64,000 bases of DNA. Origin: Larkinella terrae (GTDB lineage Bacteria; Bacteroidota; Bacteroidia; Cytophagales; Spirosomataceae). Below, piece after piece: positions 4,166 to 57,865 of the stretch. The position numbers and the translations under genes are program-made. Below the pieces are notes generated by a model, which was given only the letters and a program-made list of their open reading frames with translations, was not told the origin of the DNA and ran no database searches. Location of the stretch: assembly GCF_009668025.1 (NCBI RefSeq), contig NZ_WJXZ01000007.1:62001-126000 (forward strand), in the 5' to 3' direction. The stretch's first letter is position 1. Each line of letters opens with the position of its first letter.

Positions 4166-4234
4166 AACCACAATCCACTTCCTGAAATGTGTTTTTGGTA
4201 GGGCGGTTTTGCCTTATCGGAACGGGTCTCAATT

Positions 4235-5251: not shown

Positions 5252-5292
5252 CCCGTCAAATTCTGCTTACTAACCCATTATTTCTTACCACC

Positions 5293-42504: not shown

Positions 42505-42960
42505 TTATTTTTTACCGGCAAACCGGATTTCAACTTTGTCGCCATCCGAAGTACCAGACGCTTCGAAAACCAGTTTACCGGCCGTAATTTCGGCAATTTG
42601 TGAACCGCCATCGCTGTAGAGACCGTAGTTGGCACCGTTGGCTTTGACTTCATATTCTCCCAAATCCAGTTCCCGATCGTCTTCACCCGTTGCTTTGAGC
42701 AACAGAACCAGCGAAACGGCACCATCCGATGTTTTTTGCATATCGGCGGAGGCTGAGACGGTTACACCTTTCTGGGTAACTGGTAAGGTTTTGTAGGTTA
42801 CAACGCTTTCGCCGTTGACTTCGTAAGCGAAAGAACTCAACTTGTAGGTTCCGGCCACGGCGCTGGCGGGGTCTTTCGGGCTCACTTCCCCTTTTTCGGA
42901 ATCTTTTTTACAGGCGGCCAGTGTAACCAGCGCAAACAGGAAAATCAGTACTTTTTTCAT
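42505..42960 (-). CDS. Small lipoprotein, unknown function
   Basis: A 151-residue lipoprotein; 'LFALVTLAACKKD' gives a lipobox with Cys near residue 17. The mature part is beta-rich ('VAGTYKLSSFAYEVNGE', 'GVTVSASADMQKT', 'AEITAGKLVFEASG'), in the style of lipocalin-like Bacteroidota lipoproteins. No catalytic motif. It has a promoter upstream and its own terminator. Confidence 0.8.
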   Translation of the reverse strand: MKKVLIFLFALVTLAACKKDSEKGEVSPKDPASAVAGTYKLSSFAYEVNGESVVTYKTLPVTQKGVTVSASADMQKTSDGAVSLVLLLKATGEDDRELDLGEYEVKANGANYGLYSDGGSQIAEITAGKLVFEASGTSDGDKVEIRFAGKK

Positions 42961-42985
42961 CAGTGTAGTTGTTTAATGTTCGATG

Positions 42986-43017
42986 CAAACCTAGCACCAA
43001 ACGTACCCGACAATCAA
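42986..43017 (-). promoter_or_regulatory. Bacteroidota-type promoter for the 42505-42960 lipoprotein
   Basis: On the minus strand TTG (43015-43017), a 21-base spacer and TAGGTTTG (42986-42993). A second TAnnTTTG match, TACGTTTG, is at 42998-43005. Confidence 0.5.
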
Positions 43018-43177
43018 TTACTGGTGACATGAACTGTTACTTTTGATCGCTGAAGTGGTACCAAACCGGATTGATTCTGCTCAATCCATTTTTCGATAGT
43101 GAGATCCGTTGGGGCCAATCAATCTGATTTACGCCCATTCGGCGGGCATTTTTCGAACAAACCGGTCGGAGGGCGGT

Positions 43178-43185
43178 TATTTTTG
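43178..43185 (+). promoter_or_regulatory. Candidate -7 element for the small lipoprotein at 43206
   Basis: TATTTTTG matches TAnnTTTG, 21 bases before the ATG. The -33 region (TTTTTCG) is a poor match. Confidence 0.35.
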
Positions 43186-43205
43186 AAAGCAATGCTGACA
43201 ACGTT

Positions 43206-43442
43206 ATGAAAACGAAACAATGGATTTGGGGACTGTCACTGGCTCTGATCACCGCCATTTCGCAAATGGCCTGTGAGTCCAAAACGGAAAAGAAAGCCGA
43301 GAAAGTCGGAGATGAATACAAGGATGTCATCAAGGCCCAGAAAGAGGGCGACAGCAGTGACGTTCAGGAAGAACAGGCCGAACTGGATTCGGCTCGTCAG
43401 GATTACCGGGAACTGGCGAAAGATTCTACCCAGAAGAAGTAA
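43206..43442 (+). CDS. Very small charged lipoprotein
   Basis: A 78-residue lipoprotein. 'LALITAISQMACESK' gives a lipobox-like Cys near residue 23. The mature ~55 residues are a single highly charged helix ('KAEKVGDEYKDVIKAQKEGD'), likely a coiled coil in the periplasm; no family recognised. Such small proteins are easily missed, but the signal, the promoter-like element and the terminator support it. Confidence 0.75.
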   Translation: MKTKQWIWGLSLALITAISQMACESKTEKKAEKVGDEYKDVIKAQKEGDSSDVQEEQAELDSARQDYRELAKDSTQKK

Positions 43443-43454
43443 GGTTTAGAAAGC

Positions 43455-43499
43455 CAAAAAGCCCGGCACAACCCGAAAGTGGAAGTGCCGGGCTTTTTG
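43455..43499. terminator. Bidirectional terminator
   Basis: CAAAAAGCCCGGCAC and GTGCCGGGCTTTTTG are perfect complements across 15 bases, between the convergent genes ending at 43442 (plus) and 43533 (minus). Confidence 0.9.
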
Positions 43500-43532
43500 A
43501 TGCCCATGGAGCTGATGCAGCCAAGGTAACGA

Positions 43533-44603
<1,071 letters not shown>

Positions 44604-44611
44604 GTTCGATT

Positions 44612-44670
44612 CAGGAATACTTTCGTCCGGCAACTTACTGATAAGTTGGGCAAGGACCAAAGTATTCCTG
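44612..44670. repeat. Inverted repeat upstream of the esterase gene
   Basis: CAGGAATACTTT faces its exact complement AAAGTATTCCTG across about 35 bases, and an inner ACTTACTGATAAGT adds further pairing. It lies just before the esterase ATG and after the end of the SDR gene. It may be an operator or a leader hairpin. Confidence 0.55.
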
Positions 44671-44690
44671 ACCGGAAACCGTAAAAACCG

Positions 44691-45728
44691 TCACCATTTG
44701 AACTGATTATTGGCTTCGGCTGCATCGTCGGTCTTGGTCGTGAAAATCGAACGGGTCAGGGCGGTTTCGCTGTCCTTGCCTTTGACGCGTTGTTCCCCGA
44801 TTCCGCCAGGGGCAGGCAGTAACAAATTGATCACCGACAGAACCTCCGCCGTCAATCCGGGAAACAATCCGTGAACGGCAGCGGCCACTTTGGCGGGCAA
44901 CGAAATGATCAGTTCGGCCCGCCCGTAGCGGCAGGCTTCCAGAATTTGTCGGGCGCTTTCTTCCGCACTTTTCGACAAAACCGGCAGCGAGTCGCCAATC
45001 TTGAACCAGGCATATTCCTTTTCGTTCTGACCTTTGAACAGCGCATTTCGCGGACTACCCGTTCGCATGAGGCCCGGACAAACCGTAGTCACGTAGATAC
45101 CGTCTTTTATCAATTCGGGACGGAGCCCTTCGGAATAACCGACCAGCGCGAATTTACTGGTGGAATACGGCATCAGATGCGGAAAAGCCACTTTCCCGCC
45201 AAATGACGCTATATTAACGATCCGGCCACCCATTTCTTTTCGCGCGCGCATCTGGGGCAAAACCGCATTGATGGCGTAAACCGCCGACCAGAAATTGGTT
45301 TCCATCACTTCCCGAAAGTCATCTTCGGTTGCGTGTTCGAAGGGCGTTACCAGAATGGTCCCGGCGTTGTTGACCAGCACGTCGACCGGCCCGACGGTTT
45401 CCTGGACGGCCTGAATGAAGGCCGTTACCTGGGTTTTATCCGTGATGTCGCAGGCATAGGTAAAAACCGTGCCGCCATTTAATTCCAGATCGGCTTTGGC
45501 GCGTTCCAGTTCGGCTTCGTCGCGGGCGCAAATGGCCAGATTCGCGCCTTCCTGCGCAAACTCCCGCGCCAGCACCAGCCCCAATCCGCGCGAACCGCCG
45601 GTAATGACAACGGTTTTTCCGCGAAAGTCGGTTTTGCGCCATTGATCGAGCAGGGCTTTGGCCGCAACGGCGATGCCAATGCTCGCCAATCCCCAGAGTC
45701 CCAGTTTATTCGTGTTGGATAACCTCAT
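44691..45728 (-). CDS. Short-chain dehydrogenase/reductase (SDR), membrane-anchored
   Basis: A 345-residue oxidoreductase. An N-terminal hydrophobic segment (about residues 9-26) precedes the Rossmann motif 'TGGSRGLG' (43-50), 'NNAG' and the catalytic 'YSTSKFAL' (Tyr about 188, Lys +4). The family uses NAD(P)H; the substrate is unknown. It is longer than the usual 250-residue SDR because of the anchor and a C-terminal tail with a predicted amphipathic helix ('AAAVHGLFPGLTAEVLSVIN'), as in DHRS7-like membrane SDRs. The gap of 87 bases to the esterase gene holds the inverted repeat. Confidence 0.92.
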   Translation of the reverse strand: MRLSNTNKLGLWGLASIGIAVAAKALLDQWRKTDFRGKTVVITGGSRGLGLVLAREFAQEGANLAICARDEAELERAKADLELNGGTVFTYACDITDKTQVTAFIQAVQETVGPVDVLVNNAGTILVTPFEHATEDDFREVMETNFWSAVYAINAVLPQMRARKEMGGRIVNIASFGGKVAFPHLMPYSTSKFALVGYSEGLRPELIKDGIYVTTVCPGLMRTGSPRNALFKGQNEKEYAWFKIGDSLPVLSKSAEESARQILEACRYGRAELIISLPAKVAAAVHGLFPGLTAEVLSVINLLLPAPGGIGEQRVKGKDSETALTRSIFTTKTDDAAEANNQFKW

Positions 45729-45989
45729 CGTTCGTTTGTCTTTCCAGTGAATAAGTATTCAACCGACCAGACGGCAGAATGTTACCGATCGATGCTAGTT
45801 ACCGTGTGAATCGCCTTTCTTAAAGGCCGGGAGCGATCATCCTGCCTCCGGTTTTTTCCGGTTGAAGGATAAAATAGTTCAGTTGACTTCCAATGTCTTA
45901 CCGAAATCCGTCGGAAGAGGAAAACCTTTGCAGCATCAGAAGGCGGTTTTTTCGTCTTTTCGACCAAACAACAAAAACGACTGAACTAC

Positions 45990-47279
45990 ATGAAACGAAT
46001 TGTTTGCCTGCTGGTCTGGATAACCCTGTATGGCCTTTTTATGACGGCCTGTAAACACGACCTCGACCCGACTACTCCCGTACCGGAAAAGCCTGGTACG
46101 AACAATCCCAAGCCTTCAGATCCTGAAACCGGTGCAGTTCAGCCGGTTGGCGTCCCGCAGGGAACGGCGGTGATGCAAACGATTGGCCCGGCGGGCGGTG
46201 CCATTACCTCCGAAGACGACCGCTTTACCGTCACGATTCCGGCCGGAGCGTTAACGAAGGACGTTGCTATTTCGGTCCAGCGCATTACAAACACCAACGG
46301 CGCGGGTATCGGGGACGGCTACCGCATGCTGCCGGACGGTCAGCAGTTTGCCAAACCGGTGACCATGACGGTGAACTATACCGCCGAAGAAGGGCTGCGG
46401 AGCCTGCCGAAAGCCTTTGGAATTGCTTACCAAAACGCCAAAGGGGTCTGGATGGCGGTAGGCGGTACGCAGGTTGATACGACCAATCGTCGGGTTTCAA
46501 TTGACGTAAATCATTTTACCGATTTTACCTTTTTCGAGTATGTTTACCTGGAGCCCGAACTGAGTGCCATTGATCCGGGGCAATCCGTCGACATCAAGCT
46601 CTTTGGGTTGAGTTCGATTAACTGGTTATTGGAAGATTTTCCCAAAGGTGCGGAAAGGCCGTTGCCGAAACCGACCCCCATCGACTACCTCGATGGCTGG
46701 GAAGTACAGGGCGAAGGGCATTTGGTGGGGGCCGGAACAGCAGTGACGTATCAGTCGCCAGGCCAGTTACCAAACACAAACCCGGTTCGCGTTGTCGCGA
46801 AATTAAAGTCGCCGGGAAAAGAAGTTGCCCAACTGATTTCAACGGTATACGTACTTAAAGAAGGCATTTCGCTGCAGCCCGATGGGGGAGACTGGGTTCA
46901 TTTCCCGAAAGCCGGGGCGCATTTGCGGGGAAATATCAAGGGACTCGACGGAGAAAATGGCCAGCAAACGGTGAACATCAAATGGGAAGCTGGTTCCCAG
47001 CCGCGCAATTCCCTCGGCATTTTTCCCTGGGGCAAGGGCGTTCCCGGGATTATCTACCGCCCAAATCCGATTACTGAATATACCCACCTGTATATTGTCG
47101 ATAAGAAAATTTACGTCAGCCCGGGATCACTCAATGCCAACAGTATGCTCTACGGCGTCATTTTTGGAACATTTGATGTAAAGTTAGCGGGTGTTATTGC
47201 CACCACGATTCCGCCAGTGGTTTCCACTTCTTCAATGCGCGGAGTTTTCCGGGTGAAGTGCATGGACTGTGTCCGGTGA
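45990..47279 (+). CDS. Lipoprotein with ZU5-like domain
   Basis: A 429-residue surface or periplasmic lipoprotein. 'LYGLFMTACKHD' gives a lipobox Cys near 21, followed by a Pro-rich linker. 'IGPAGGAITSEDDRFTVTIPAGAL' (quoted in part: GPAGGAITSEDDRFTVTI) opens a ZU5-like domain to about residue 180, seen in many Bacteroidota proteins of unknown function. The remainder is beta-rich without a recognised motif. The leader 'AAACAACAA' lies just before the ATG. Confidence 0.75.
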   Translation: MKRIVCLLVWITLYGLFMTACKHDLDPTTPVPEKPGTNNPKPSDPETGAVQPVGVPQGTAVMQTIGPAGGAITSEDDRFTVTIPAGALTKDVAISVQRITNTNGAGIGDGYRMLPDGQQFAKPVTMTVNYTAEEGLRSLPKAFGIAYQNAKGVWMAVGGTQVDTTNRRVSIDVNHFTDFTFFEYVYLEPELSAIDPGQSVDIKLFGLSSINWLLEDFPKGAERPLPKPTPIDYLDGWEVQGEGHLVGAGTAVTYQSPGQLPNTNPVRVVAKLKSPGKEVAQLISTVYVLKEGISLQPDGGDWVHFPKAGAHLRGNIKGLDGENGQQTVNIKWEAGSQPRNSLGIFPWGKGVPGIIYRPNPITEYTHLYIVDKKIYVSPGSLNANSMLYGVIFGTFDVKLAGVIATTIPPVVSTSSMRGVFRVKCMDCVR

Positions 47280-47331
47280 CCCGCCGAAACCGTACCCGCA
47301 GAAGGGTCTGGCAGTAGCCTTATTTATTCTC

Positions 47332-47376
47332 AAAAAAGCAGATCGCAGCACCGTGTGGCGATCTGCTTTTTTATTA
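47332..47376 (+). terminator. Rho-independent terminator
   Basis: AAAAAAGCAGATCGC pairs with GCGATCTGCTTTTTT across a 12-base loop, ending in T. About 53 bases after the ZU5-like gene. Confidence 0.9.
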
Positions 47377-47534
47377 TTCTGGTACTTATCGAATAAAAAG
47401 TAGAAATAATCGGTAAAAACAGGCCGTTTGTCGATGAATAGCCGGGTTTGAAAGAAAAAAATAAAACCGCATTAAACGCTCGGCGTGGTTGTCCCTCTAA
47501 GAGGCATATTACAACAAATAAACAACAACCAACC

Positions 47535-47951
47535 ATGAAAACGACCATCTTCACTCTCGTCACATTAGCAGTATTAAGCGCCGGAACAGCAATGGCTCAA
47601 CGCGGTTACGACAACGACCGTTACCCGGCTCCCAATCCAAGATATGACGATAATCGATACAACAACCAACGCTATGACGACATCCAGGAAGACATCCGGA
47701 TTGATCGGCTGGACGCCATCGTCGGGTTGTCACGCCATCAGGAACGACAACTGAAACGCATCGAAGACCGCTATGATTTCCGCGAAATGGAAACCGCAAG
47801 ACGCCGGGACCCGCAGGCTTATCAATACACCCTCCGTCGGAAAAATCAGGAAATGATGTCGGTGCTGACACCGTACCAACGGGAAAGACTCTTTGCTTAC
47901 CAACAACAATACCGCCGGAACGATCGGGGTTACTACGGTCGCCGGTACTAA
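47535..47951 (+). CDS. Small secreted Arg/Tyr-rich protein
   Basis: A 138-residue exported protein with signal peptide 'LVTLAVLSAGTAMAQ'. The start region is Asn/Asp/Arg/Tyr-rich ('YDNDRYPAPNPRYDDNRYNN'), the centre forms helices ('LSRHQERQLKRIEDRYDF', 'LTPYQRERLFAYQQQY'), and it ends 'YYGRRY'. This resembles periplasmic Spy/CpxP-like or DUF4890-type LTXXQ proteins ('LTPYQRERL' is close to the LTxxQ motif). The function may be protein quality control, but this is uncertain. The frame is open from 47448; ATG 47535 follows a typical leader 'AAACAACAACCAACC'. Confidence 0.7.
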   Translation: MKTTIFTLVTLAVLSAGTAMAQRGYDNDRYPAPNPRYDDNRYNNQRYDDIQEDIRIDRLDAIVGLSRHQERQLKRIEDRYDFREMETARRRDPQAYQYTLRRKNQEMMSVLTPYQRERLFAYQQQYRRNDRGYYGRRY

Positions 47952-47969
47952 TGAACAGGGTTTCTAAAA

Positions 47970-48000
47970 ACGAAAAAGCGGAGTAATCCGCTTTTTTCGT
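47970..48000. terminator. Bidirectional terminator
   Basis: ACGAAAAAGCGGA and TCCGCTTTTTTCGT form a 13-base stem with loop GTAA. It separates the plus-strand secreted gene from the minus-strand defence cassette and can end both. Confidence 0.85.
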
Positions 48001-48037
48001 TTGAGACTATTCTAACGGGAAAATAAATGAACAAAAA

Positions 48038-48790
48038 CTAATCGAAGAAATCGTCAGGTAAATCCTTTACAGTCTCAATAGATCGCATGAGCATGGTAAA
48101 AGCGCTTCTGCGAGATAATAAACCTTGTAATACCGATTTAGCTTTGAATTCTTCTTCTGCATTACCTTGTTTCTCAGCCACTCTCCATTTATTCATCCAC
48201 CTCAAGACTTCTTCATATTTTTTATAAATAGCAAAACGTAGGTCTTTAGTGCGGTTTATTGTTTCAGGGCTGCTACCATTGTGTAGATGTTTTAACAAAT
48301 TTGCAGTATTGACTGCTTTCTGGTTCTTTCTATCCTGTGCTTGAAAGTGTACTGCCTGACCTCCAAAATCAATAAGATATAATAATTCAGACTCAACATC
48401 ATCTAGTGGATTACATGGATCAAGATATCCTCCAACTGGAGTTCGTCGGGGTTTCATCATGTTTGCTGCATGTTCAGCTGGATATAGATTTGACCAAGTA
48501 TAAGTCAAATTAGGATTTTCGGTACGAGAAACAAAATGTTCTACATCCATTGCCCAGGAGGTAACAAACTTTTGTTCTGTAAGGTAGCATTTAGCGTGAA
48601 ATTCGTTATCAAAACGTTCAAATAAATCCGTACCGCGCCACGACTCTTTAGAGACCGGTTTTGAAATTGTCTGTTGGTCTTTGGGAAGTTGTTGATCTTC
48701 TTTGTAGGCTTCTAATGAGTCCAAATAGTGTTGTATTTCAATAGAAGTTAGAGATTGCGGAGATTCGGGGGTACGGTCAATATTAATCAT
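48038..48790 (-). CDS. HNH-type nuclease, PtuB-like partner of Septu-type defence cassette
   Basis: A 250-residue cytosolic protein. The core looks like the TIGR02646/HNH fold: 'AKCYLTEQ' (Cys68), 'MDVEHFVSR' (Asp82, Glu84, His85), 'TYTWSNLYPAEHAANMMK' (Asn101, Asn110, Lys113) and 'GYLDPCNPLDD' (Asp124, Asn127). The usual zinc-knuckle CxxC pairs are lost; only single Cys remain at 68 and 126. The C-terminal half is helical. It lies 14 bases downstream of the ATPase gene and has the same AT-rich composition, so both form one unit. In Septu the HNH protein (PtuB) is the effector nuclease, controlled by the ATPase (PtuA). I infer that role here from gene order and domain content, not from close identity. 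Confidence 0.75.
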   Translation of the reverse strand: MINIDRTPESPQSLTSIEIQHYLDSLEAYKEDQQLPKDQQTISKPVSKESWRGTDLFERFDNEFHAKCYLTEQKFVTSWAMDVEHFVSRTENPNLTYTWSNLYPAEHAANMMKPRRTPVGGYLDPCNPLDDVESELLYLIDFGGQAVHFQAQDRKNQKAVNTANLLKHLHNGSSPETINRTKDLRFAIYKKYEEVLRWMNKWRVAEKQGNAEEEFKAKSVLQGLLSRRSAFTMLMRSIETVKDLPDDFFD

Positions 48791-48804
48791 TTATAAAAAG
48801 TACC

Positions 48805-50064
48805 TTAAACATTTTGTAAAATCATAGATTCCAATTCAACTCTCAATGTTGGTGAAAGGTATTGTCCATTAACTTCTAAAATTTCTTCTAGTTTTTGGCG
48901 AAGCTTTATCTTATCTTCCTTTAATTCACGTAATGCTAGGTTGACTTGACTTATTATTTCATCCGCAATATTCGAATACTCATTTTCCAAACCAAAGTGC
49001 GTCACCATCAATTCAGAATAGCTTTTTCCTGCTACATCATCCGTTTCTGTAACTTTAGTCGTTAAATCAAAAATTGTTGCCTTTTTAACACTAGATATTA
49101 CTGCCGGAGAATGGGTAGCAGCAATGAATTGAATATTAGGAAAAAGACTCGCTAGTAGCGGAAGAACTTGGTATTGCAGCTCAAGGTGAAGATGTGTTTC
49201 TGGCTCATCAATTAAAACAATTCCGCATGGATTATATGAATAATCACCAACTTGTTTTCTAATTAAATCTACACGCATGAACAAATCCATTAGAATACTT
49301 AACAATGCCGAAAAACCTTCTGATAAAGTATCAAAAGTAAGTTGGCGGCTGTCGGATAATTTTATATAGAATTCGAAACTTTCTTGGACAAATACTAATT
49401 CCAGTGTGTCATCCTCAAAAATTTTACGAAATGTGTCTGTTAGAACAATAAAGAAACGCTCACTATTCTCAATTTTATCCTTATCATTATTTAGTTGATT
49501 GAATGCTTGGTAAACTTTTTGATTGACCAGGTATTGTTTGAATTCTTTTATAAAACTTTCGGTAGTGCTATTACTTAAGAGTTTATCTGTAAAATCAGCT
49601 TCTTTAGTAACAGTATTAACTTCTATTTTATTAGGAATTTCTCGTTTTGCTTGAAGAAATGAATAAATAGTTTCCGATTTATGTACGGGCCAAAAAGTAT
49701 TTGGACGAACTGTGTAACCTAGATTTATTTTTTTAAACTCTATTAATTTTTTTTGCCACGTTTTTACTGTTGAGTCGTCATTCCCTTGTTGAGACGCTCT
49801 ATGTGCGATGTTACTTTCTAATTGATAAATTTGCTTGATAGGGTCTGTTTCTCCTCCTATAAAAGCCGTCTTGCCACGCCAAGAGAGAATGTAATTATCA
49901 ATCGCTCTTAAAATCGTACTCTTTCCCGAACCATTCTTCCCAGTCAAAATCAAATGGCTGAACGGCTGGTAGTCGTGTAAAACAATATCAAAATCCTTGT
50001 ACGCATAACAGTCGTTTACGTGCAAGGATTTGATATAGGGAAATTCTTCTGGCTTAATCATCAT
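48805..50064 (-). CDS. ABC/OLD-like AAA ATPase, PtuA-like subunit of Septu-type defence cassette
   Basis: A 419-residue ATPase. Walker A is 'GKNGSGKST' (residues 42-50); 'LSEGFSALLSIL' has the place of the ABC signature; Walker B with its catalytic acid and the H-loop region are 'VLIDEPETHLHLELQ' (about 281-295) and 'FIAATHSPAVISS' (about 310-322). The middle is a long helical/coiled insert, and no TOPRIM nuclease domain is seen at the C-terminus, unlike OLD. With the HNH gene 14 bases downstream this is the PtuA-PtuB layout. The genes are strikingly AT-rich beside nadE and the receptor, which points to horizontal gain. A TATATTTG element lies upstream in the short gap after nadE. Confidence 0.82.
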   Translation of the reverse strand: MMIKPEEFPYIKSLHVNDCYAYKDFDIVLHDYQPFSHLILTGKNGSGKSTILRAIDNYILSWRGKTAFIGGETDPIKQIYQLESNIAHRASQQGNDDSTVKTWQKKLIEFKKINLGYTVRPNTFWPVHKSETIYSFLQAKREIPNKIEVNTVTKEADFTDKLLSNSTTESFIKEFKQYLVNQKVYQAFNQLNNDKDKIENSERFFIVLTDTFRKIFEDDTLELVFVQESFEFYIKLSDSRQLTFDTLSEGFSALLSILMDLFMRVDLIRKQVGDYSYNPCGIVLIDEPETHLHLELQYQVLPLLASLFPNIQFIAATHSPAVISSVKKATIFDLTTKVTETDDVAGKSYSELMVTHFGLENEYSNIADEIISQVNLALRELKEDKIKLRQKLEEILEVNGQYLSPTLRVELESMILQNV

Positions 50065-50085
50065 TCTGCCTTTCTAGTTCACGTT

Positions 50086-50093
50086 CAAATATA
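50086..50093 (-). promoter_or_regulatory. Candidate -7 promoter element of the ATPase/HNH cassette
   Basis: The minus strand reads TATATTTG (TAnnTTTG consensus) inside the 32-base gap between the nadE stop and the ATPase start, giving a leader of about 15-20 bases. The -33 region falls in the 3' end of nadE and is a poor match. Confidence 0.45.
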
Positions 50094-50096
50094 CGC

Positions 50097-52121
50097 TTAA
50101 AACCCAATTTTCCCCTTTCGCCCCCGGCCTTCGTTGCCTTCGACGTATTCCTTCAGTTCCGCCAGTTCCTTTTCAAAACCACTGCTCAGAATCGGAAAGC
50201 GGCACCAGGTTTTGGGGTCCACGTTTTCGTCGTCGACGTGGAACGAAGGCGCATACCGCTCGCGCTTCCACTGATTGCGGCTCCAGAGTCGGAAAAACCG
50301 GTCGACAGAAGTGTACAACTGATCGCGGCTATACTGGTTTTCAAACACCACTTCGACCTGTTGCATGACTTCCTTCGGCGATAATTTATCCCGGATACCG
50401 AATTTTTCGATGGCGTTCAGGACGTCGTACGGCATCAGGTCTTCCTCATCGGTTTGCTTCTTATCGAGCGGGCGGAGTTCAGCGGTGGGTTGCAGGTTAT
50501 TCACTTTTTGTAAACCCGCCACTTTGATGGTGCCGCCCACGCCCACGGTTTCGAGCCAGCGGAGCCAGCCGCGCAGGTAATGCTTGTCAATTCCGGCGAT
50601 GGGGGAGATGCTGCCCGCCGTGTCGCCGTCCATTGTGGCGTATCCCACCGACGCTTCCGAGCGGTTTGATGTAGAGAGCAGCAGGGCGTTGTTGATATTG
50701 GCAAGGAGCCACGCACTCGGGGCCCGCACCCGCGCCTGAATGTTTTGCAGGGCCACATCGTCGGTTTCCCAGGTGAGCGGACGGCCCAGCTGGTCTTCGA
50801 TCAGTTTGGTGTACGTTTCGACCAAACCGTTGATATTGATGTTGTAGAACGTTGCGCCGATGGATTTCGCCAGCGATTCCGCCGATTCGTAGGTGTCGGT
50901 TGAGCTGTTTTCGGTTCCCTGATAAATGGTGGTCAGCAAGGCCCCGCAGATTTCCTCGACGGTTTTCAGTTTCTGAATCGCCTTAATGTGGCTGAGTTTC
51001 TTCTTGAAGCCGTCCAGGCCGATGCTTTCGTCCGCCATCCGGATCATGAGCGAAACCAAAGCCGCAATGGCCGAGGAGTCGGCACCCCCGCTCAGCGACA
51101 GTACGAAACCGTGCGAGCGGCTTTTGCGCAGGTAATCGAACAGTGCCAGCGCCACGGCCCGCGCAAATTCTTCTTCTTTCAGGTGATTGCCGTTTTCCCA
51201 GTATTCCAGTTCGGCTTTTTGCACGACCGGTTTTACGGCCGGAAAATCAAACTGAGCCGCCACGCGCAGGTTGGGAAACAGGTACGCCAGATTGACCTTG
51301 TTTTGAGTCTGACTTAGCCGCGTGTCATCGATGTCGATTACGGCGGTAATGATCAGCTGGTCGGCGTAGCTGAAACGCGGTCCCGACACCAGCAACTGGC
51401 CGTTGGACGCCACCATGGCATCGCCGTCGAAAATAGCACGACCCGATTCGTTGCCCACCAGGTTGCAGTAGATGTAACTGACTCCGAACGCCCGGGAACC
51501 GTCGATCACAAACCGTTCGCGAACGTGCGATTTATAGAAGGAAAAGTGGCTGGCGCTCGGATTCAGGATAATATCGACACCGCGTTCGTGGAGACTGCGG
51601 CCGGGGCGGTTGGAAATCCAGGCATCTTCGCAAATCTCAAAACCGATCTTCACGCCCGAAACATCGAACAGCAGGTCGCCGACCGGATAGGTAAACTCGC
51701 CGATCTGGATTTCGTCGCGCACGCCGGGTGTCCAGGGCTGGAACCAGCGGGTTTCGTAATGAATGCCGTTGTTGGCCATCACCTGTTTGCAGACGAAGCC
51801 CAGAATCCGCTTGTTGGCGATCAGGCAGGCCGTGTCGTAGGTGCGGTTATTGGCCAGCCGCAATGGCAGACTGACGGCCACGATAATGTCGGCGGTATGC
51901 GGTACAATTTCCAGCAGACTTTGCTTGGCCTGCTCAACTAGTTCGTGCGAAAAGAACATGTCCTCGCAACCGTAGCCGGTAATGCACAATTCGGGCAGAC
52001 ATAAAATACTGACGTTCTGATTTTTCGCTTCTTCAATGGCGTCGATAATATTCCGGCGGTTGTGTTCCCAGGCCATCGGGATCTGGTTGACAACACCGGC
52101 CGCAACTTTTATAAGTTTCAT
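50097..52121 (-). CDS. nadE: NAD(+) synthase, glutamine-hydrolysing
   Basis: A 674-residue enzyme making NAD from deamido-NAD, ATP and glutamine. The N-terminal nitrilase-type amidase carries Glu in 'LCLPELCITGYG' and Cys in 'GFEICEDAW' (about residues 158-166), releasing ammonia. The C-terminal synthase has the PP-loop 'LSGGADSSAIAAL' near 340, 'TSNRSEASVGYATMDGDTAG' (in part), and the C-terminal 'DELYTSVDRF'-like region. The length matches glutaminase-fused NadE. Housekeeping gene; the defence cassette follows only 32 bases downstream on the same strand, which may allow read-through. Confidence 0.97.
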   Translation of the reverse strand: MKLIKVAAGVVNQIPMAWEHNRRNIIDAIEEAKNQNVSILCLPELCITGYGCEDMFFSHELVEQAKQSLLEIVPHTADIIVAVSLPLRLANNRTYDTACLIANKRILGFVCKQVMANNGIHYETRWFQPWTPGVRDEIQIGEFTYPVGDLLFDVSGVKIGFEICEDAWISNRPGRSLHERGVDIILNPSASHFSFYKSHVRERFVIDGSRAFGVSYIYCNLVGNESGRAIFDGDAMVASNGQLLVSGPRFSYADQLIITAVIDIDDTRLSQTQNKVNLAYLFPNLRVAAQFDFPAVKPVVQKAELEYWENGNHLKEEEFARAVALALFDYLRKSRSHGFVLSLSGGADSSAIAALVSLMIRMADESIGLDGFKKKLSHIKAIQKLKTVEEICGALLTTIYQGTENSSTDTYESAESLAKSIGATFYNININGLVETYTKLIEDQLGRPLTWETDDVALQNIQARVRAPSAWLLANINNALLLSTSNRSEASVGYATMDGDTAGSISPIAGIDKHYLRGWLRWLETVGVGGTIKVAGLQKVNNLQPTAELRPLDKKQTDEEDLMPYDVLNAIEKFGIRDKLSPKEVMQQVEVVFENQYSRDQLYTSVDRFFRLWSRNQWKRERYAPSFHVDDENVDPKTWCRFPILSSGFEKELAELKEYVEGNEGRGRKGKIGF

Positions 52122-52514
52122 GTAAGGGATTTTCTGGTTGATCAGTTTTTAATTCAGTCGGCAAACAACAACTTTTTCGGATCAGTATAAAATCCGATCG
52201 GTAATAAAATAACGTCTCCGTCCTTTTTACGGTTCACACGAACGTACGCCCCGTTTAAACCCCAATAACACCCATTTACACCTTTTTGATTGAACGAATG
52301 CAACCTTGTAACCAATCTTTGCATCACACAAACACCAGCAGTAAACAACAAATACGGTTTCCGTGCCAGTCATCACGAAAATAATACCACCTATGTAAGA
52401 TAAGGTTCTATGTAATGCATACTACTTAACTTTGCCACGTACTCCAGGGATAACCGGACAGTAAACAACACTTTTGAATTGTAATACGTAAACAACAACC
52501 TACTAATAGATCTC
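52122..52514. other. Divergent intergenic region between nadE and the beta-barrel receptor gene
   Basis: Contains three copies of GTAAACAACA (52341, 52461, 52488) and a plus-strand promoter element. A minus-strand frame of 65 codons (52154-52351) ends in a plausible-looking 'VILLPIGFYTDPKKLLFAD', but its start overlaps one motif copy; I do not call it a gene. No RNA gene seen. Confidence 0.5.
52427..52434 (+). promoter_or_regulatory. -7 promoter element for the beta-barrel receptor gene
   Basis: TAACTTTG matches TAnnTTTG. Transcription would begin near 52441, giving a leader of about 75 bases that contains two GTAAACAACA copies, one followed by CTTTTGAAT as in the leader at 32644. Confidence 0.5.
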
Positions 52515-54965
52515 ATGAAAACGTTTATCACCGCAGTGTGTACGTGGCTGGTTATGACTTCGGCAATGGCCCAGACTGCTCCGAATGGCAAGGTGCGCGG
52601 ACTGGTTATCGATCCGGCGCAAAAGCCGTCGGAATTCGTCACGATCCTGCTACTCAAAGCCAAAGACTCAACGCTGGTCAAGGGCGTGGTTACCAATGAC
52701 AAGGGCCAATATGAGTTCGACAATGTAGCCGTGGGCGGTTATCGGGTGGCTACTTCGCTGATCGGTTTCAAGAAAGTATATTCAGAACCGTTCGCGATTG
52801 ATGCGGTAACTCCTGAGGTTCAGGTGAAAACGTTAACGATGGTGGAAGAAGCCAAGAGCCTGAATGAGGTGAAAGTGGTGGCTAAAAAACCGTTCATCGA
52901 GCAGGAAATCGACCGGACGATTGTCAATGTTGAAAACAGCATCGTTGCGAGCGGAAGTACTGCCCTCGAAGTGCTGGAAAAAGCGCCGGGTGTGACCATT
53001 GACCGCCAGAGCGACAACATTCAGTTAAAAGGAAAAGGGGGCGTTATCGTTATGATCGACGGCAAACAAACCTACCTGTCGGGCCAGGAAGTGGCCAACC
53101 TGCTGAAAAACACGCCGAGCGACAACATCGAGAAAATCGAGATCATCACCAATCCTTCTTCCAAATACGACGCAGCCGGAAACGTGGGAATTATCAACAT
53201 CCGGATGAAGAAAAACAAGAACTTCGGCACCAACGGAACAGCGATTGCCGGGGTGGGTTACGGCCGGTTTGAAAAAGCCAACGCCAGCCTGAACCTGAAC
53301 CACCGCGTCGGTAAAATCAACGCATTCGGAAACTACAGCTACTTTCACAACCGCCGTTTCCAGGAAAACAGCCTGGACCGGATCATTCCTTACAACGGAA
53401 AAATTACCTATTTCGACCAGTCGTCATACCGCCCAAACCGCTTCGACGGACACACGTTCCGGGGCGGCATCGATTATTTCATCAACAAGAAAAGCACCAT
53501 TGGCGTACTGGCAACCGGTTTTATCAACGACTGGGAACAGCCCAACGGCATCAATCACTCGGTGATCAGCAACGAGCTGCACCAGATTACGCTAAAACCG
53601 ACAACCGAAGTTTCGGTAAAAAACAAGTGGTCGAACGTAACGGGGAACGTAAACTACAAGTATGATTTTGACGGCAAAGGCCGCGAATTCACTAGTGACC
53701 TCGATTATTCCCGGTTCAACGGCCAGTCGTACAACAACCTGAGCACGACCTACACCAACGCCAACGACAGCATCGTTCAGCCGACGGCCATTGTTCGCAA
53801 CAACATGCCTTCGATCATCGATATCTGGGCGTTCAAATCGGATTACGTACATCCGACGAAGATCGGGAAGTTTGAAACCGGTCTAAAAACCAGCTTCGTG
53901 AACTCGGACAATAACCTGACTTACGAAGATTACGTAGACGGTCGCTGGGTGTTCAATCCCAACCAAAGTAACCAGTTCAAGTATACTGAAAATATTAACG
54001 CCGTTTACGCGAATTTTTCGGGCAAGCTCTACAAGAATACCACCATTCAGGCCGGTCTGCGGCTGGAGAATACACACTCGCGGGGTAACTCCGTGACGCT
54101 TAATAAAATTGTGGACCGGAACTATACTAATTTGTTTCCTACGCTGTTTTTATCACAGAAAATCGATACCAACAACGTGCTGAACCTGTCGTACAGCCGT
54201 CGGATCGACCGCCCGAATTATCAGAACCTGAACCCGTTCCGGTTCTATCTGGACCCCTATACGTATCAGCAGGGGAATCCGTATCTGAAACCGCAGTTTA
54301 CCAATTCGTTTCAGTTGACCCACGTGTACAAAGGTAAATTCTCGACTACGCTGGGGTATAGCCGGACGACCGACGTGATTGTGAACGAAGTTCCGGGTCA
54401 GATTCCGGAAGAGAACATCACGTTTGTAACCACTGACAACCTGGCCACGCAGGACAATGTGAACCTGACGATGAGCTTCCCGGTGACGGTGACCAAGTGG
54501 TGGAACATGCAGAATAACATCGGCGTGAATTATAACAAGTATGATTCGCCGTATCTGGGGGCGCAGTACAACGTCAGCTTCGTGTCCTATAACGTGTATA
54601 CGTCGCAGAACTTTGTGTTGCCGAAGGGCTTCAGTGCTGAAGTAGCGGGTTGGTATAATTCAAAAAGTGTCTACGGTTTTTACCGTTCCATTCCGCAGGG
54701 AGCCTTTAGCCTGGGCGTCCAAAAGACGCTGATGAACAGGAAAGCAAGTCTGAAACTGAATGTAAATGACCCGTTCTGGCTGAACCGATTCGAAGGAAGA
54801 GCGACGTATCAGGACATTAATTTCCGGGTTCGGGCGCGTTGGGAAAGCCGCATTGCCCGTCTGACGTTCACGTATCGTTTCGGGAACCAGAACGTAAAAG
54901 CCGCCCGTCAGCGGAGCACCAGCACCGAGGCCGAGCGTAACCGGGCCGGTGGGGGCAATAATTAA
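52515..54965 (+). CDS. TonB-dependent receptor / outer-membrane beta-barrel family protein
   Basis: An 816-residue outer-membrane protein. After a signal peptide ('LVMTSAMAQ') a carboxypeptidase-regulatory-like domain ('KVRGLVIDPAQKPSEFVTI', 'GVVTNDKGQYEFDNV') spans about 25-110. A plug-like domain with 'ALEVLEKAPGVTIDR', 'VIVMIDGKQTYLSGQE' and 'IEKIEIITNPSSKYDAAG' follows to about 235. The barrel (OMP_b-brl_3 type) ends 'RLTFTYRFGNQ', then a polar tail. This subfamily often has no SusD partner; ligand unknown. The last strand resembles that of the remnant at 26445-26621. Confidence 0.92.
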   Translation: MKTFITAVCTWLVMTSAMAQTAPNGKVRGLVIDPAQKPSEFVTILLLKAKDSTLVKGVVTNDKGQYEFDNVAVGGYRVATSLIGFKKVYSEPFAIDAVTPEVQVKTLTMVEEAKSLNEVKVVAKKPFIEQEIDRTIVNVENSIVASGSTALEVLEKAPGVTIDRQSDNIQLKGKGGVIVMIDGKQTYLSGQEVANLLKNTPSDNIEKIEIITNPSSKYDAAGNVGIINIRMKKNKNFGTNGTAIAGVGYGRFEKANASLNLNHRVGKINAFGNYSYFHNRRFQENSLDRIIPYNGKITYFDQSSYRPNRFDGHTFRGGIDYFINKKSTIGVLATGFINDWEQPNGINHSVISNELHQITLKPTTEVSVKNKWSNVTGNVNYKYDFDGKGREFTSDLDYSRFNGQSYNNLSTTYTNANDSIVQPTAIVRNNMPSIIDIWAFKSDYVHPTKIGKFETGLKTSFVNSDNNLTYEDYVDGRWVFNPNQSNQFKYTENINAVYANFSGKLYKNTTIQAGLRLENTHSRGNSVTLNKIVDRNYTNLFPTLFLSQKIDTNNVLNLSYSRRIDRPNYQNLNPFRFYLDPYTYQQGNPYLKPQFTNSFQLTHVYKGKFSTTLGYSRTTDVIVNEVPGQIPEENITFVTTDNLATQDNVNLTMSFPVTVTKWWNMQNNIGVNYNKYDSPYLGAQYNVSFVSYNVYTSQNFVLPKGFSAEVAGWYNSKSVYGFYRSIPQGAFSLGVQKTLMNRKASLKLNVNDPFWLNRFEGRATYQDINFRVRARWESRIARLTFTYRFGNQNVKAARQRSTSTEAERNRAGGGNN

Positions 54966-55052
54966 ATAAAAGTTAAATAAAGCAAACGGCGAATGAATTT
55001 TCGTCCACCCGCCGTTACTTTAATAGATAATTAGTTTAGGTTAAGAAAGCAG

Positions 55053-55085
55053 AAAGCCATTCCCACCTTGAGGAGTGGCTTTTTT
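55053..55085 (+). terminator. Rho-independent terminator
   Basis: AAAGCCATTCC pairs with GGAGTGGCTTT (one G-U pair) and is followed by T. About 87 bases after the receptor stop. Confidence 0.8.
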
Positions 55086-55128
55086 GATTTTTAAAAATAC
55101 GGTAACATTCGACAAATTCAAAATACTA

Positions 55129-55164
55129 TTTGGTGACAAGATGTAGATACATTTAATAAATTTG
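55129..55164 (+). promoter_or_regulatory. Promoter candidate without a normal downstream gene
   Basis: TTTG (55129-55132) and TAAATTTG (55157-55164) resemble -33 and -7 elements, with a spacer of 24 bases that is a little long. The next gene to the right, pgk, is on the other strand. Confidence 0.4.
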
Positions 55165-55226
55165 CATCACATGAAGGTTATTAATTTAAAAGTCATAAAA
55201 AAAGGTCACTTTTTGTGACCTTTTTT
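55165..55226 (+). ncRNA. Candidate small RNA or 15-codon peptide unit
   Basis: A transcript from the promoter above would be about 55-60 bases and end at the hairpin 55198-55226. It contains an ATG at 55171 with 15 codons ending TGA inside the hairpin; the predicted peptide is MKVINLKVIKKGHFL. No known family recognised. Confidence 0.3.
55198..55226. terminator. Bidirectional terminator next to pgk
   Basis: AAAAAAGGTCAC and GTGACCTTTTTT are perfect complements around a five-T loop. It lies 45 bases after the pgk stop (minus strand) and also ends any plus-strand transcript from 55165. Confidence 0.85.
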
Positions 55227-55270
55227 GTGATAATCTAAATGATAATTATAATCCGACTAATTGCGGATTG

Positions 55271-56458
55271 TTAGTCCAAAGCCGCTACGCCGGGCAGGGT
55301 TTTGCCTTCCATGTACTCCAGCAGGGCTCCTCCGCCCGTTGAAACGTAACTCACGCGGTCGCCATACCCGGCGTTGTTGACCGCCGAAGCCGAGTCGCCA
55401 CCGCCGATGAGCGAGAAAGCGCCGTTTTCTTCCGTAGCTTTGACAACAATGTCCGCAATGGCGTTGGTGCCGATGGCAAAATTTGGAAATTCGAATACGC
55501 CCATCGGGCCATTCCAGAGGATGGTTTTCGATTTACTCAACACATCGCTGAACAACGTAACGGTTTCCGGACCAATATCCAATCCCTCCCAGTCGTCCGG
55601 AATTTCACCGGTTTTTACCGTCTGGCGGTTGGCATCGTTGGAAAAACCGTCGGCAATGATGTTGTCAACCGGCAGATAAACCTGAACGCCTTTGGATTTG
55701 GCTTTTTCGAGCAGTTCGAGCGCCAGTTCCTGCTTGTCGGCTTCGAGCAGGGATTTGCCAATTTTACCGCCCTGGGCTTTCGTAAACGTATACGCCATAC
55801 CACCGCCAATGATCAGGTTATCAACTTTGTCGAGTAATTTTTCGATGATCAGAATTTTATCCGAAATTTTGGCACCACCCATGATCGCCGTAAACGGGCG
55901 CTCGGCATCTTCCAGCACGCGCTGGGCGTTGTCGAGTTCGGCCTGCATGACGTAACCGCAGACTTTATCCGTAAAAAACTGCGCAATGACGGCCGTCGAC
56001 GCGTGAGCGCGGTGGGCCGTTCCGAACGCATCGTTAACGTACACATCGCCTAGCTTCGACAATTTTTCGGCAAACGCAACGTCACCTTTCTCTTCTTCTT
56101 TGTAGAAACGCAGATTTTCCAACAACAAAATTTCGCCCGGTTTCAGCGCGTCGGCCAGTTCTTTGGCGGACTCTCCGATGCAATCATCGGCGAATTTTAC
56201 CGGCACACCCAGCATGATTGACAAAGGACCAACCAGGTGTTTCAGCGAAAATTTATCTTCAGGTCCGCCTTTGGGCCGACCCAAATGCGACATCAAAACG
56301 CACGAACCGCCGTCTTTCAGAATTTTATTGATCGTCGGCAGCGTGGCTTTCATACGGGTATCGTCCGTAATTTCAAACTTGCTGTTCAGCGGAACATTGA
56401 AATCCACCCGAATCAGGGCGCGTTTACCGGAAAAATTATAAGAATCTAAAGTTTTCAT
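55271..56458 (-). CDS. pgk: Phosphoglycerate kinase
   Basis: A 395-residue glycolytic enzyme that transfers phosphate from 1,3-bisphosphoglycerate to ADP. Signatures: '[13 protein letters not shown]' at the start, '[11 protein letters not shown]', '[15 protein letters not shown]' , '[10 protein letters not shown]', '[13 protein letters not shown]', 'WNGPMGVFE' and the C-terminal '[10 protein letters not shown]' with '[15 protein letters not shown]'. The length is normal. The frame extends to 56485; ATG 56458 gives the usual start. Single gene with its own terminator. Confidence 0.98.
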
Positions 56459-56602
56459 ACGACAGATTTCCTGATTAGTTGGCAAAATCCGCCCGAACTT
56501 AGGAGTTTTTAGGCAAATGGAACAATCACACGATCAGCTTGTTAGATTAGTGCTAATTTTACGTGTATTGATACAATTTTAGCCTTCATTTCTTACTTGA
56601 AA

Positions 56603-56635
56603 AAAACCGTACCGGGATATATCAGGTACGGTTTT
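56603..56635 (-). terminator. Rho-independent terminator
   Basis: On the minus strand AAAACCGTACC pairs with GGTACGGTTTT around an 11-base loop and is followed by TT. It would end transcripts of the cytochrome gene at 56835 and of the small remnant at 56667. Confidence 0.75.
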
Positions 56636-56666
56636 GCGGTTTTTACGTTGGTTCCGTTTATCAACT

Positions 56667-56790
56667 TCATTGTTTGTTGCCTTCCCGTTTTAAGTAGAAA
56701 TCGATTTCCGGCCTAATAAAGCGTTCATCGGGCCGCGAAAGCGACAATGCTTAATAATGCACTGATAATCAGTACGTTTACTTTTTTATG
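56667..56790 (-). pseudogene. Broken small secreted-protein ORF
   Basis: After a leader AACAACAAATACAATC the minus strand reads CAT-AAAAAA-GTA; a start codon ATG would need one more G. The frame then codes 'KKVNVLIISALLSIVAFAA', a clear signal-peptide pattern, and stops; the adjacent frame continues 'RPDERFIRPEIDFYLKREGNKQ', given in part as RPDERFIRPEIDFYL, to a TGA at 56667. One frameshift and a lost start would explain both. A terminator follows. Sequencing error is an alternative. The rest of 56486-56834 shows nothing else. Confidence 0.4.
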
Positions 56791-56834
56791 ATTGTATTTG
56801 TTGTTACTGACTAAAAGTAGTACGAATCAAACGG

Positions 56835-57434
56835 TCAGGGAGTTGGTGGAATGGCGGCCGGGACCGCATTGGAAATGGGTTTGAGCGACTTCAGATATGC
56901 AAAAACCGCTTTCATATCCGCATCGGCCATGCCAGCGTAATTGGGCCACGGCATCGGGGGCAGCAAGGGCCGACTGTTGTCCACTCCTTTAAATTTCCCC
57001 TGCCGCATGGCCTTGTTAAACTGCCCGAACGACCAGCTGCCGATACCGGTCGCGTCGGGCGTCAAATTAGCTGCGAACGATACGCCCCAGGGACCGATGA
57101 AAGCCGTGTTTTGCCCGTTGAACAACACCCACTGACCGGTTTTGACCAGATTCGGGTCATACGTTCCCAGCGGTATGGCGCTGTTGTAACCGGAAAGAAA
57201 GCGGTCCACATCGGGAACCGGGCCTTGGGGCGTCAGTTTCTTGGGGGCGTGGCAATCGGCGCAACCCATGATGCCAACCAGGTATTCGCCCCGTTTCACC
57301 AATGGGTTCTGGGCGGGGTGTTGGCGGGCCAGGGCGATGGGTTTGTCATTGACCGGTTTTGGGCTCGAAGCTGGGTTTGTAAAGGCACAAATGAGCCAGC
57401 TGGTGACAGATGCCGCCAGATAAATGCGTTTCAT
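56835..57434 (-). CDS. Exported c-type cytochrome (mono-haem)
   Basis: A 199-residue periplasmic protein with an N-terminal hydrophobic signal. The haem site C-A-D-C-H is at residues 58-62 ('GIMGCADCHAPKK'), with a likely Met ligand in 'LLPPMPWPNYAGM' near 170. 'YLVGIMGCADCHAPK' and 'MPWPNYAGMADADMKAVFAYL' match a common Bacteroidota cytochrome c class that serves as an electron shuttle or as a subunit of periplasmic dehydrogenases. The RidA gene begins 39 bases upstream on the same strand. Confidence 0.9.
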   Translation of the reverse strand: MKRIYLAASVTSWLICAFTNPASSPKPVNDKPIALARQHPAQNPLVKRGEYLVGIMGCADCHAPKKLTPQGPVPDVDRFLSGYNSAIPLGTYDPNLVKTGQWVLFNGQNTAFIGPWGVSFAANLTPDATGIGSWSFGQFNKAMRQGKFKGVDNSRPLLPPMPWPNYAGMADADMKAVFAYLKSLKPISNAVPAAIPPTP

Positions 57435-57472
57435 AATGTGTTTAGTTTTTAAAGGATTTTTACGCTGAAGGC

Positions 57473-57865
57473 TTATCTGACCGCCGTTGCCTCGATTTCA
57501 ACCATCAAGTTCGGGAAAGCCAGCGCTTTTACCTCGGTCAGCGTACTGGATGGCACGCAACCGGCTGCGCCCAGTCGGCCCATTACTTCGCCGTAAGCCG
57601 CAAAAAAGGCGTCGATGGAGGTCGTATAATAATTGAGCCGGATCACATTCGATAGTGAGTAACCTGCTTGGTGTAAAACCGTCTCCAGATTGTCGAAACT
57701 AACGCTAATTTGTCCGGCCATATCGGTCGATACGGGTTGGCCATCGGCAGTCATGGCGGCTTGCCCGGCGCAGTATAGCGTGTGGGTTGAATGGGGAACT
57801 TCGACGGCCTGCGCGTAACCCAGTTGGTTTTGCCATTGCCAGGGATTAATGATTGACTTTTGCAT
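57473..57865 (-). CDS. RidA/YjgF-family protein (enamine/imine deaminase-like)
   Basis: A 130-residue protein of the RidA superfamily, which hydrolyses reactive enamine/imine intermediates; members are trimers. 'YAQAVEVPHSTHTLYCAGQ' opens the fold, 'DNLETVLHQAGYSLSNVIRL' is the helix, and 'VPSSTLTEVKALAFPNLMVEIEATAV' (in part: LAFPNLMVEIEATA) is the last strand. The family's catalytic Arg before 'TxxV/GVxxL' is replaced here by Ser-Thr ('CVPSSTLTEVKAL'), so it may belong to the non-deaminase Rid branches. A GTAAACAACA motif lies 7 bases before the ATG. Confidence 0.87.
   Translation of the reverse strand: MQKSIINPWQWQNQLGYAQAVEVPHSTHTLYCAGQAAMTADGQPVSTDMAGQISVSFDNLETVLHQAGYSLSNVIRLNYYTTSIDAFFAAYGEVMGRLGAAGCVPSSTLTEVKALAFPNLMVEIEATAVR

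Follow-up and report, generated by a model that had tools for sequence, protein, structure and literature searches.

Two adjacent genes in Larkinella terrae raise the question of which system they form and why they stand directly behind a core gene. They are predicted to encode an ATPase and an HNH-type nuclease, and they lie in a stretch of 64,000 nucleotides of contig NZ_WJXZ01000007.1, the whole of which is referred to here as the window. An initial annotation, made from the letters alone, described the pair as a Septu-like defence cassette with a degenerate HNH nuclease, and left it between a diverged Septu branch and a related system not yet typed. We consider it quite probable that this is a type I Septu (PtuAB) pair whose PtuB lacks the two zinc-binding cysteine pairs, and that it forms a compact cassette docked behind the core gene nadE. 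Septu is a known kind of system. What appears to be new is the zinc-less branch and, more novel still, the docking sites beside core genes, which seem to be common to Septu and toxin-antitoxin (TA) cassettes.

Both proteins matched the Septu type I models of PADLOC, judged by E-value and without PADLOC's own score thresholds. The ATPase aligned to PtuA1 (PDLC00268) over residues 10-414 (E 7.7e-77, 257 bits), and the next models were far weaker (ATPase_I-A of retron I-A, 1.4e-33; AriA, 1.1e-21). The HNH protein matched PtuB1 (PDLC00331) over residues 45-238 (E 4.8e-24). Pfam assigned the ATPase to PF13304 (E 5.4e-23) and detected no TOPRIM family in it. The two genes follow each other on the minus strand, ptuA first, with a gap of 14 bp, and both open reading frames are intact with all their motifs. 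The Walker A residues G42, N44, G45, G47, K48 and T50 of PtuA were invariant in all rows of a 25-row alignment (L099, L109 and L110 are omitted from the 25-row alignments), as were I285, D286, E287, P288 and E289 of the Walker B stretch, which reads VLIDEPETHLH (residues ~283-293). The ABC/OLD-like ATPase without TOPRIM, its Walker motifs, the short gap and the six HNH core residues of Table 1 were thus all as the initial annotation had them. Adjacent homologous ATPase-HNH pairs are present in relatives and, together with the PADLOC E-values and the ratios of nonsynonymous to synonymous substitution rates (dN/dS) in relatives given below, place the pairing far beyond chance.

The predicted folds point to the same family. 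The PtuB model, built from the 25-row alignment, had a mean predicted local distance difference test (pLDDT) score of 93.2, and its six best Foldseek matches in the PDB were all chains of retron I-A (PtuAB) effector complexes, three of the six with E <= 0.001. The best, 9u9y_H, reached E 5.3e-5 with a probability of 1.00, template modelling (TM) scores of 0.52/0.61 and 12% identity; the match ranked seventh had an E-value of only 1.3. For the PtuA model (mean pLDDT 80.1), 50 of 50 among the matches listed came from Septu or retron PtuA-containing entries, the best being 8eea_D from E. coli Septu (E 5.6e-13, TM 0.54/0.50). The predicted folds thus identify both proteins as Septu or retron I-A effectors, although the similarity is moderate. 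Since the PADLOC Septu type I models match both proteins and the predicted folds match solved PtuA and PtuB, the profiles and models indicate a diverged type I Septu branch, and the option of an untyped system falls away.

A retron link, against which the initial annotation had already decided, found no support. An Rfam scan of the 64 kb window gave no match, and hence no msr-msd RNA, and no PADLOC reverse transcriptase model matched any of the ten flanking proteins (42505-57865). The window PtuA also missed the cut-off of the retron Ec78 PtuA equivalog (NF041760) with 116.6 of the 500 bits required. Among the same ten flanking proteins one had a weak partial PADLOC match, and no defence island is visible around the pair. 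The protein concerned is encoded by a small open reading frame at 57473-57865 (PD-T4-2_B, E 1.6e-7), looks RidA-type by eye and is probably unrelated to defence.

The sequence of PtuB corrects the earlier description of its HNH site as degenerate. Residues H85, N101 and N110 do not vary among the 25 aligned clade members, which span several phyla, and D82 and F86 hardly do; the 16-residue spacing between H85 and N101 is that of H75 and N91 in Septu EcB88, residues needed for defence there. The catalytic residues are thus intact, and the loss is confined to the structural zinc ligands. Both CxxC pairs had been called absent; neither is complete, but the first cysteine, C68 in the motif KCYLTE, is retained, with T71, E106 and A109 at the other three positions. 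PtuB relatives are graded by their cysteines, from full CxxC...CxxC (e.g. L017, L018) through intermediates with half of them, Cys-xx-Ser...x-xx-Cys (e.g. L019-L022), to the window branch, which reads Cys-xx-Thr...none (KCYLTE...HxANxxKP). The half-cysteine intermediates connect the window branch with the CxxC-bearing PtuBs. His107 and Cys126, conserved in the zinc-less branch, might form an alternative site. A second cysteine-poor group (L066, L072, L080) was kept apart from the 16 zinc-less loci of Spirosomataceae discussed below.

The most unusual feature of the locus, which the initial annotation does not mention, is its position behind nadE, together with the exchange of cassettes at such junctions. 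ptuA begins 32 bp behind nadE. Neighbours were read for 70 of 72 loci (L023 and L070 hold no ATPase-PtuB pair) and for 27 named loci, six of which lie on the same contigs; gene names were assigned by eye, except for nadE, hemL, hisD, hisC and cysN, which are profile-supported. In 15 of the 16 zinc-less Spirosomataceae loci (a set without L016, which belongs to a different family of the order) a same-strand gene ends 31-61 bp before ptuA, the gap being measured from the true start in L014 and from a split ptuA in L051. This gene is nadE in 11 loci, hemL in two, cysN in one and carboxypeptidase-like in one, and L024 has an opposite-strand neighbour. As background, 98 of 275 genes have a same-strand gene within 61 bp, giving p 2e-6 if the loci were independent, which related loci are not. 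For L016, the call of a MoxR-type upstream gene, made by eye, was set aside as weak: its NCBIfam matches were all below cut-off, the best being chelatase subunit D. In the comparison of L013 (G054:C1) and L120 (G033), a PtuAB-eamA block stands behind cysN, not nadE, and one genome of the same genus keeps nadE and eamA joined; the cysN-linked block is a rearrangement broken at the 5' end of the cassette.

The sister branches occupy comparable sites: between nadA and nadB in six loci, between hisD and hisC in three, between hisH and hisA in two, behind hemL in two, behind uvrA in one and opposite a proC-like gene in five, the rest having other neighbours. A GH3-like gene and dxr flank three more distant PtuAB pairs. 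Two different PtuAB branches are represented at the hemL site, which speaks for repeated entry. One of the nadA-nadB loci belongs to the window's own genome (L041, G000:C4:281200-292000, ptuA 3695-5059, ptuB 5056-5811); this second pair is of the half-cysteine branch, and two short antitoxin-like genes precede its ptuA. In L034 (G572:C327), where PtuAB lies between hisD and hisC, a toxin gene that looks RelE-like by eye stands before hisD in the same operon.

The cargo of these junctions turns over. While nadE was found in every one of the 181 family genomes searched, the place behind it differed among 28 of the 32 genomes with an inferred Spirosoma label (G580, G587, G598 and G601 were left out, as were second nadE copies of G046, G588 and G599): nine carried PtuAB, nine a TA module, seven neither and three other cargo. 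The TA modules consisted either of DUF433-DUF5615 or of a PIN toxin paired with a small gene. Ten TA proteins were compared with Pfam, of which nine matched (three of the nine below the Pfam cut-off), and the others were identified by eye. The empty junctions had gaps of up to 120 bp to eamA, the first core gene to follow in 21 of the 28 genomes (six of the nine with PtuAB). The other cargo was a rifampin ADP-ribosyltransferase gene in two genomes and a 481-bp stretch without a long open reading frame in one. This NAD-using enzyme (arr) was confirmed by NCBIfam in L166 and called by eye in L168.

For the nadA-nadB junction we took, out of 151 genomes, the 30 whose nadB was nearest, and found PtuAB in six, TA modules in 12, nothing in nine (gap up to 153 bp) and other genes in three. 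Of the non-empty junctions, 18 of 21 held PtuAB or TA modules at this site, and so did 18 of 21 in Spirosoma behind nadE. At the nadA-nadB site of the window's genus, ptuA is still preceded by short genes resembling antitoxins, which we interpret as remnants of former TA cassettes. The junction immediately downstream of nadB, inspected by eye in 30 loci, showed no recognisable cassette of this sort (p 2e-7, with many of these junctions convergent).

The PtuAB cassettes have a composition and a promoter-like box of their own. Their GC content was below that of both flanks in 24 of 24 loci checked (35% in the window, against 51% and 55%). A box of the form TAnnTTTG, which we take to be the Bacteroidota -7 element, follows nadE in each of the 11 PtuAB junctions there, 3-14 bp past its stop codon. 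With the 70 bp after the stop scanned, it occurs in one of 10 empty junctions and one of 12 others, and it occurs in 41 of 350 background gene starts when the 50 bp before them are scanned. A TTG 17-23 bp before the box was found in 9 of the 16 zinc-less Spirosomataceae loci, the window not being one of them. The hairpin behind ptuB is weak when taken alone, since the scan gave 6 such sites and shuffled sequence gave a mean of 5.3.

Table 1. Positions of the PtuAB cassette, its motifs and its adjoining features in the window
Feature	Position	Strand	Evidence or remark
nadE, glutamine-dependent NAD+ synthetase; host gene, not part of the defence unit	50097..52121	-	TIGR00552 above cut-off
Bacteroidota-type -7 box TATATTTG (consensus TAnnTTTG)	50086..50093	-	29 bp before ptuA start, 3 bp after nadE stop
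ptuA, ABC/OLD-type ATPase, 419 aa, PADLOC PtuA1	48805..50064	-	PADLOC, Pfam, Foldseek
Walker A GKNGSGKST, PtuA residues 42-50	49915..49941	-	sequence
Walker B LIDEPE, PtuA residues 284-289	49198..49215	-	sequence
ptuB, HNH-type nuclease, 250 aa, PADLOC PtuB1, zinc-less branch	48038..48790	-	PADLOC, alignment, fold
PtuB HNH core, residues 82-113 (D82, E84, H85, N101, N110, K113)	48452..48547	-	alignment to CxxC-bearing PtuB relatives
Terminator-like hairpin with T tail, ~40 bp after ptuB stop	47973..47996	-	simple scan; left-flank homology to two congeners ends here

Features suggestive of exchange were found at several junctions. In five of 73 loci scanned, displaced pieces of nadE or nadA lie behind the cassette. 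Four of them are copies of the last 57-111 bp of the host gene through its stop codon (nadE in L033, L037 and L123; nadA in L143), and the fifth (L146) is a 43-bp nadA piece ending 96 bp before the stop. These tails look as if incoming DNA had given the gene a new 3' end and displaced the old one. Two mosaics were also detected: L019 and L020 share 87% DNA identity from the middle of ptuA into nadB and not in the first half of ptuA, and L027 and L037 share 85% from nadE into ptuA and not at the ptuA end or in ptuB. Mosaics and displaced tails fit homologous exchange through conserved flanks. No integrase, transposase or mobilisation gene was recognised by eye among the neighbours, for which no profile search was made. 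In L172 (G605) the nadE match stops ~38 residues early, a different tail closes the frame, and a DUF433-DUF5615-like module follows 2 bp behind, as if a cassette had entered the 3' end of nadE.

The window cassette itself sits at a synteny break, as follows from where its flanking homology ends and where the left flank matches. Homology to eight congeners on the nadE side ends at 50,086-50,101, and the match of the left flank extends to 47,997-48,002 in two of them and to ~47,951-47,958 in five; in all eight the left-flank match lies on another contig or >130 kb from nadE. We see an even chance that the nadE-eamA and nadA-nadB junctions, and probably also those behind hemL, between hisD and hisC, between hisH and hisA and between the GH3-like gene and dxr, are docking sites for single two-gene defence and TA cassettes. 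The PtuAB cassettes would carry their own promoter and no mobilisation gene, and would be exchanged by recombination between flanking core genes, sometimes with replacement of the gene's 3' end, the former end persisting as a direct repeat.

A number of results, taken up in this paragraph and the next, weigh against a docked Septu pair exchanged in this way. Outside Spirosomataceae a same-strand gene lies within 61 bp in 2 of 19 named loci (L086 is omitted, and L093 has no upstream gene in its stretch), so that docking is a habit of this family and not of the zinc-less branch. The omitted L086, titled Flavobacterium sp. SUN052, carries a nadE-PtuAB-EamA arrangement very like that of the Spirosomataceae contig L085; it is probably mis-titled, or its assembly may be mixed. 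Tail copies occur in 2 of 61 PtuAB loci, and the window has neither a displaced nadE tail nor an adjoining eamA. The TAnnTTTG box is present in only 4 of 10 TA junctions behind nadE. A tree of PtuA joins the nadE-linked rows and the cysN one in a single group (90/96, short of the starred level). Entry behind nadE may therefore have been one event that then spread with the family, in which case the 16 loci would not be independent. Such a group, and same-strand gaps of 31-61 bp that are typical of operons and frequent in the background, would be expected of a passive operon passenger, transcribed only by read-through from nadE or inherited from one old insertion, at junctions that are ordinary insertion places. 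We regard this as unlikely, given the box that marks the PtuAB junctions behind nadE and is nearly missing from the empty ones, the preponderance of PtuAB and TA modules in the cargo of two sites, and the lack of recognised cassettes downstream of nadB, though the geometry differs there.

On the side of family assignment, the window PtuB had zero matches in the Pfam scan and missed the retron Ec78 PtuB equivalog (NF041761) with 17.8 of 150 bits. Of the profiles named in the initial annotation, PF13304 matched alongside PADLOC, and TIGR02646 did not, reaching 27.4 bits over residues 58-105 only, under its cut-off of 52.15. TM-scores by query length are moderate (PtuB 0.46-0.52, PtuA 0.40-0.56, at 12-21% identity), and we found no defence assay for the zinc-less branch. 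A related but distinct ATPase-HNH system with another function could explain these shortfalls and the fact that the zinc-less PtuBs form their own group in the alignment. We hold this to be distinctly improbable, since the Septu type I models are the best in PADLOC for both proteins, the best folds are Septu or retron PtuAB, and the half-cysteine intermediates bridge the gap.

The recurrence of NAD genes invites a different explanation, in which PtuAB is a housekeeping partner of NAD synthesis that works with NadE and senses or acts on NAD metabolism. It draws on the 11 of 16 zinc-less Spirosomataceae loci that follow nadE and on the six sister-branch loci between nadA and nadB. Yet in the window's genus PtuAB stands behind nadE in just one of nine genomes, and the eight congeners have none there; other loci use hemL, cysN, hisD-hisC and, by eye, hisH-hisA; and unrelated TA modules occupy the same junctions. 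Nor was an NAD gene recognised by eye beside the branch in the Hymenobacter, Treponema and Planctomycetaceae records. A partnership with NadE is therefore very unlikely.

The window pair has relatives well beyond Spirosomataceae. The window PtuB, used as query, matched 11 of 99 related genomes, its own among them; one of the 11, G073 (E 9e-4), was not confirmed, its locus L023 holding neither PtuB nor PtuA by profile. A wider PtuB profile of 11 rows, which also picks up CxxC-type PtuBs, matched 78 of 181 family genomes and 38 of 392 in a phylum-wide sample. Against named genomes the window PtuB alone gave 12 pattern matches, none confirmed, and the clade alignment instead gave the 27 named loci. 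These place the zinc-less branch in Spirosoma, Arcicella, Runella, Emticicia, Hymenobacter and Chitinophaga, and further afield in records of Treponema, Planctomycetaceae, Lentisphaerae, Desulfobacterales and Nitrosomonas. Its occurrence in several phyla indicates that it has moved between them. Viral contigs gave 106 pattern matches and no relative, so phage carriage of the zinc-less branch was not seen by that search. In L062 (5268-7466) a protein of 732 residues matches both the PtuB and PtuA profiles, an apparent fusion, and adjoins a separate PtuB.

In 13 of 20 gene comparisons among relatives, some from sister branches, dN/dS was 0.04-0.22; the other seven were saturated in dS, including the window's own nearest pair, so these values do not come from the window pair. 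Purifying selection is clear in the relatives, to judge from these substitution rates. That the window pair is a decayed, inactive remnant, like the split ptuA of L051 (G586) or the short ptuB of L052 (CxxC branch), is most improbable in view of these ratios and of its intact reading frames and motifs.

By analogy with characterised systems, PtuA would assemble with PtuB and keep it inactive; infection would alter the complex, and the HNH site of PtuB would then cut nucleic acid. Candidate targets are tRNA-Tyr, the cutting of which is described for Septu EcB88 (PMC13096335) and the depletion of which is reported for the PtuAB of retron-Eco7 (PMC11555353), or phage DNA, as in the Septu of E. 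coli ATCC 25922, cited in PMC11555353 as DNA-targeting. Cutting would stop the phage, probably through cell shutdown. According to PMC13096335, substitution of H75 or N91 in PtuB, or of K43 or D316 in PtuA, abolishes EcB88 immunity. The cassette would travel as a compact unit with its own promoter-like box and dock immediately after a core gene, at a place that in relatives is empty or taken by TA modules or other PtuAB alleles. Homologous recombination in the conserved genes on either side, the 3' end of the preceding gene included, would be the most likely means of exchange.

The window pair shares with Septu type I as defined in PADLOC the gene pair and its order, the ATPase and HNH families, the catalytic residues and the lack of a visible reverse transcriptase. 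It differs in the missing zinc cysteine pairs, the sub-threshold NCBIfam scores and the position behind nadE with no visible defence island. With EcB88 it shares the Walker ATPase and the H/N spacing; what sets EcB88 apart is its E. coli host and the cutting of tRNA-Tyr shown for it. The retron I-A proteins (Ec78/Eco7, Ec83) are the best solved folds for the window PtuB and among the best for PtuA, but no reverse transcriptase or msr-msd was found here, and the window PtuA is ~120-130 residues shorter than theirs (419 against 542-552).

The defence hotspots of E. coli, as presented in PMC10121019, likewise combine fixed core-gene positions with changing defence cargo, which there is reported to be almost always on prophages, integrative and conjugative elements or transposons. 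In Spirosomataceae the cassettes are single gene pairs that lie within core transcription units or at their ends, and inspection by eye revealed no mobile-element gene. The contrast deserves a test, given the reported near-universal carriage of E. coli defence genes by mobile elements. The COG2442(DUF433)-PIN and other type II TA modules of the kind described in PMC2701414 share the nadE and nadA-nadB junctions with PtuAB and are a different kind of module. Among the titles and abstracts that searches of one open-licence library gave for Septu with Spirosoma, and for defence or TA genes in operons or core-gene hotspots, none describes such docking sites.

These findings bear on how bacteria of this family may acquire and replace immune genes. 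The zinc-less branch suggests that the cysteine pairs are dispensable to a PtuB that retains its histidine and two asparagines, which bears on the purpose of the zinc site. Defence genes are usually sought in defence islands and mobile elements, and single pairs beside core genes would escape such guilt-by-association. The junctions behind nadE and between nadA and nadB are concrete places to mine for new systems, and the spread of small cassettes without a recombinase becomes testable. If the proposed docking is true, it would represent a recombinase-free turnover of immune genes, distinct from defence islands and mobile-element hotspots.

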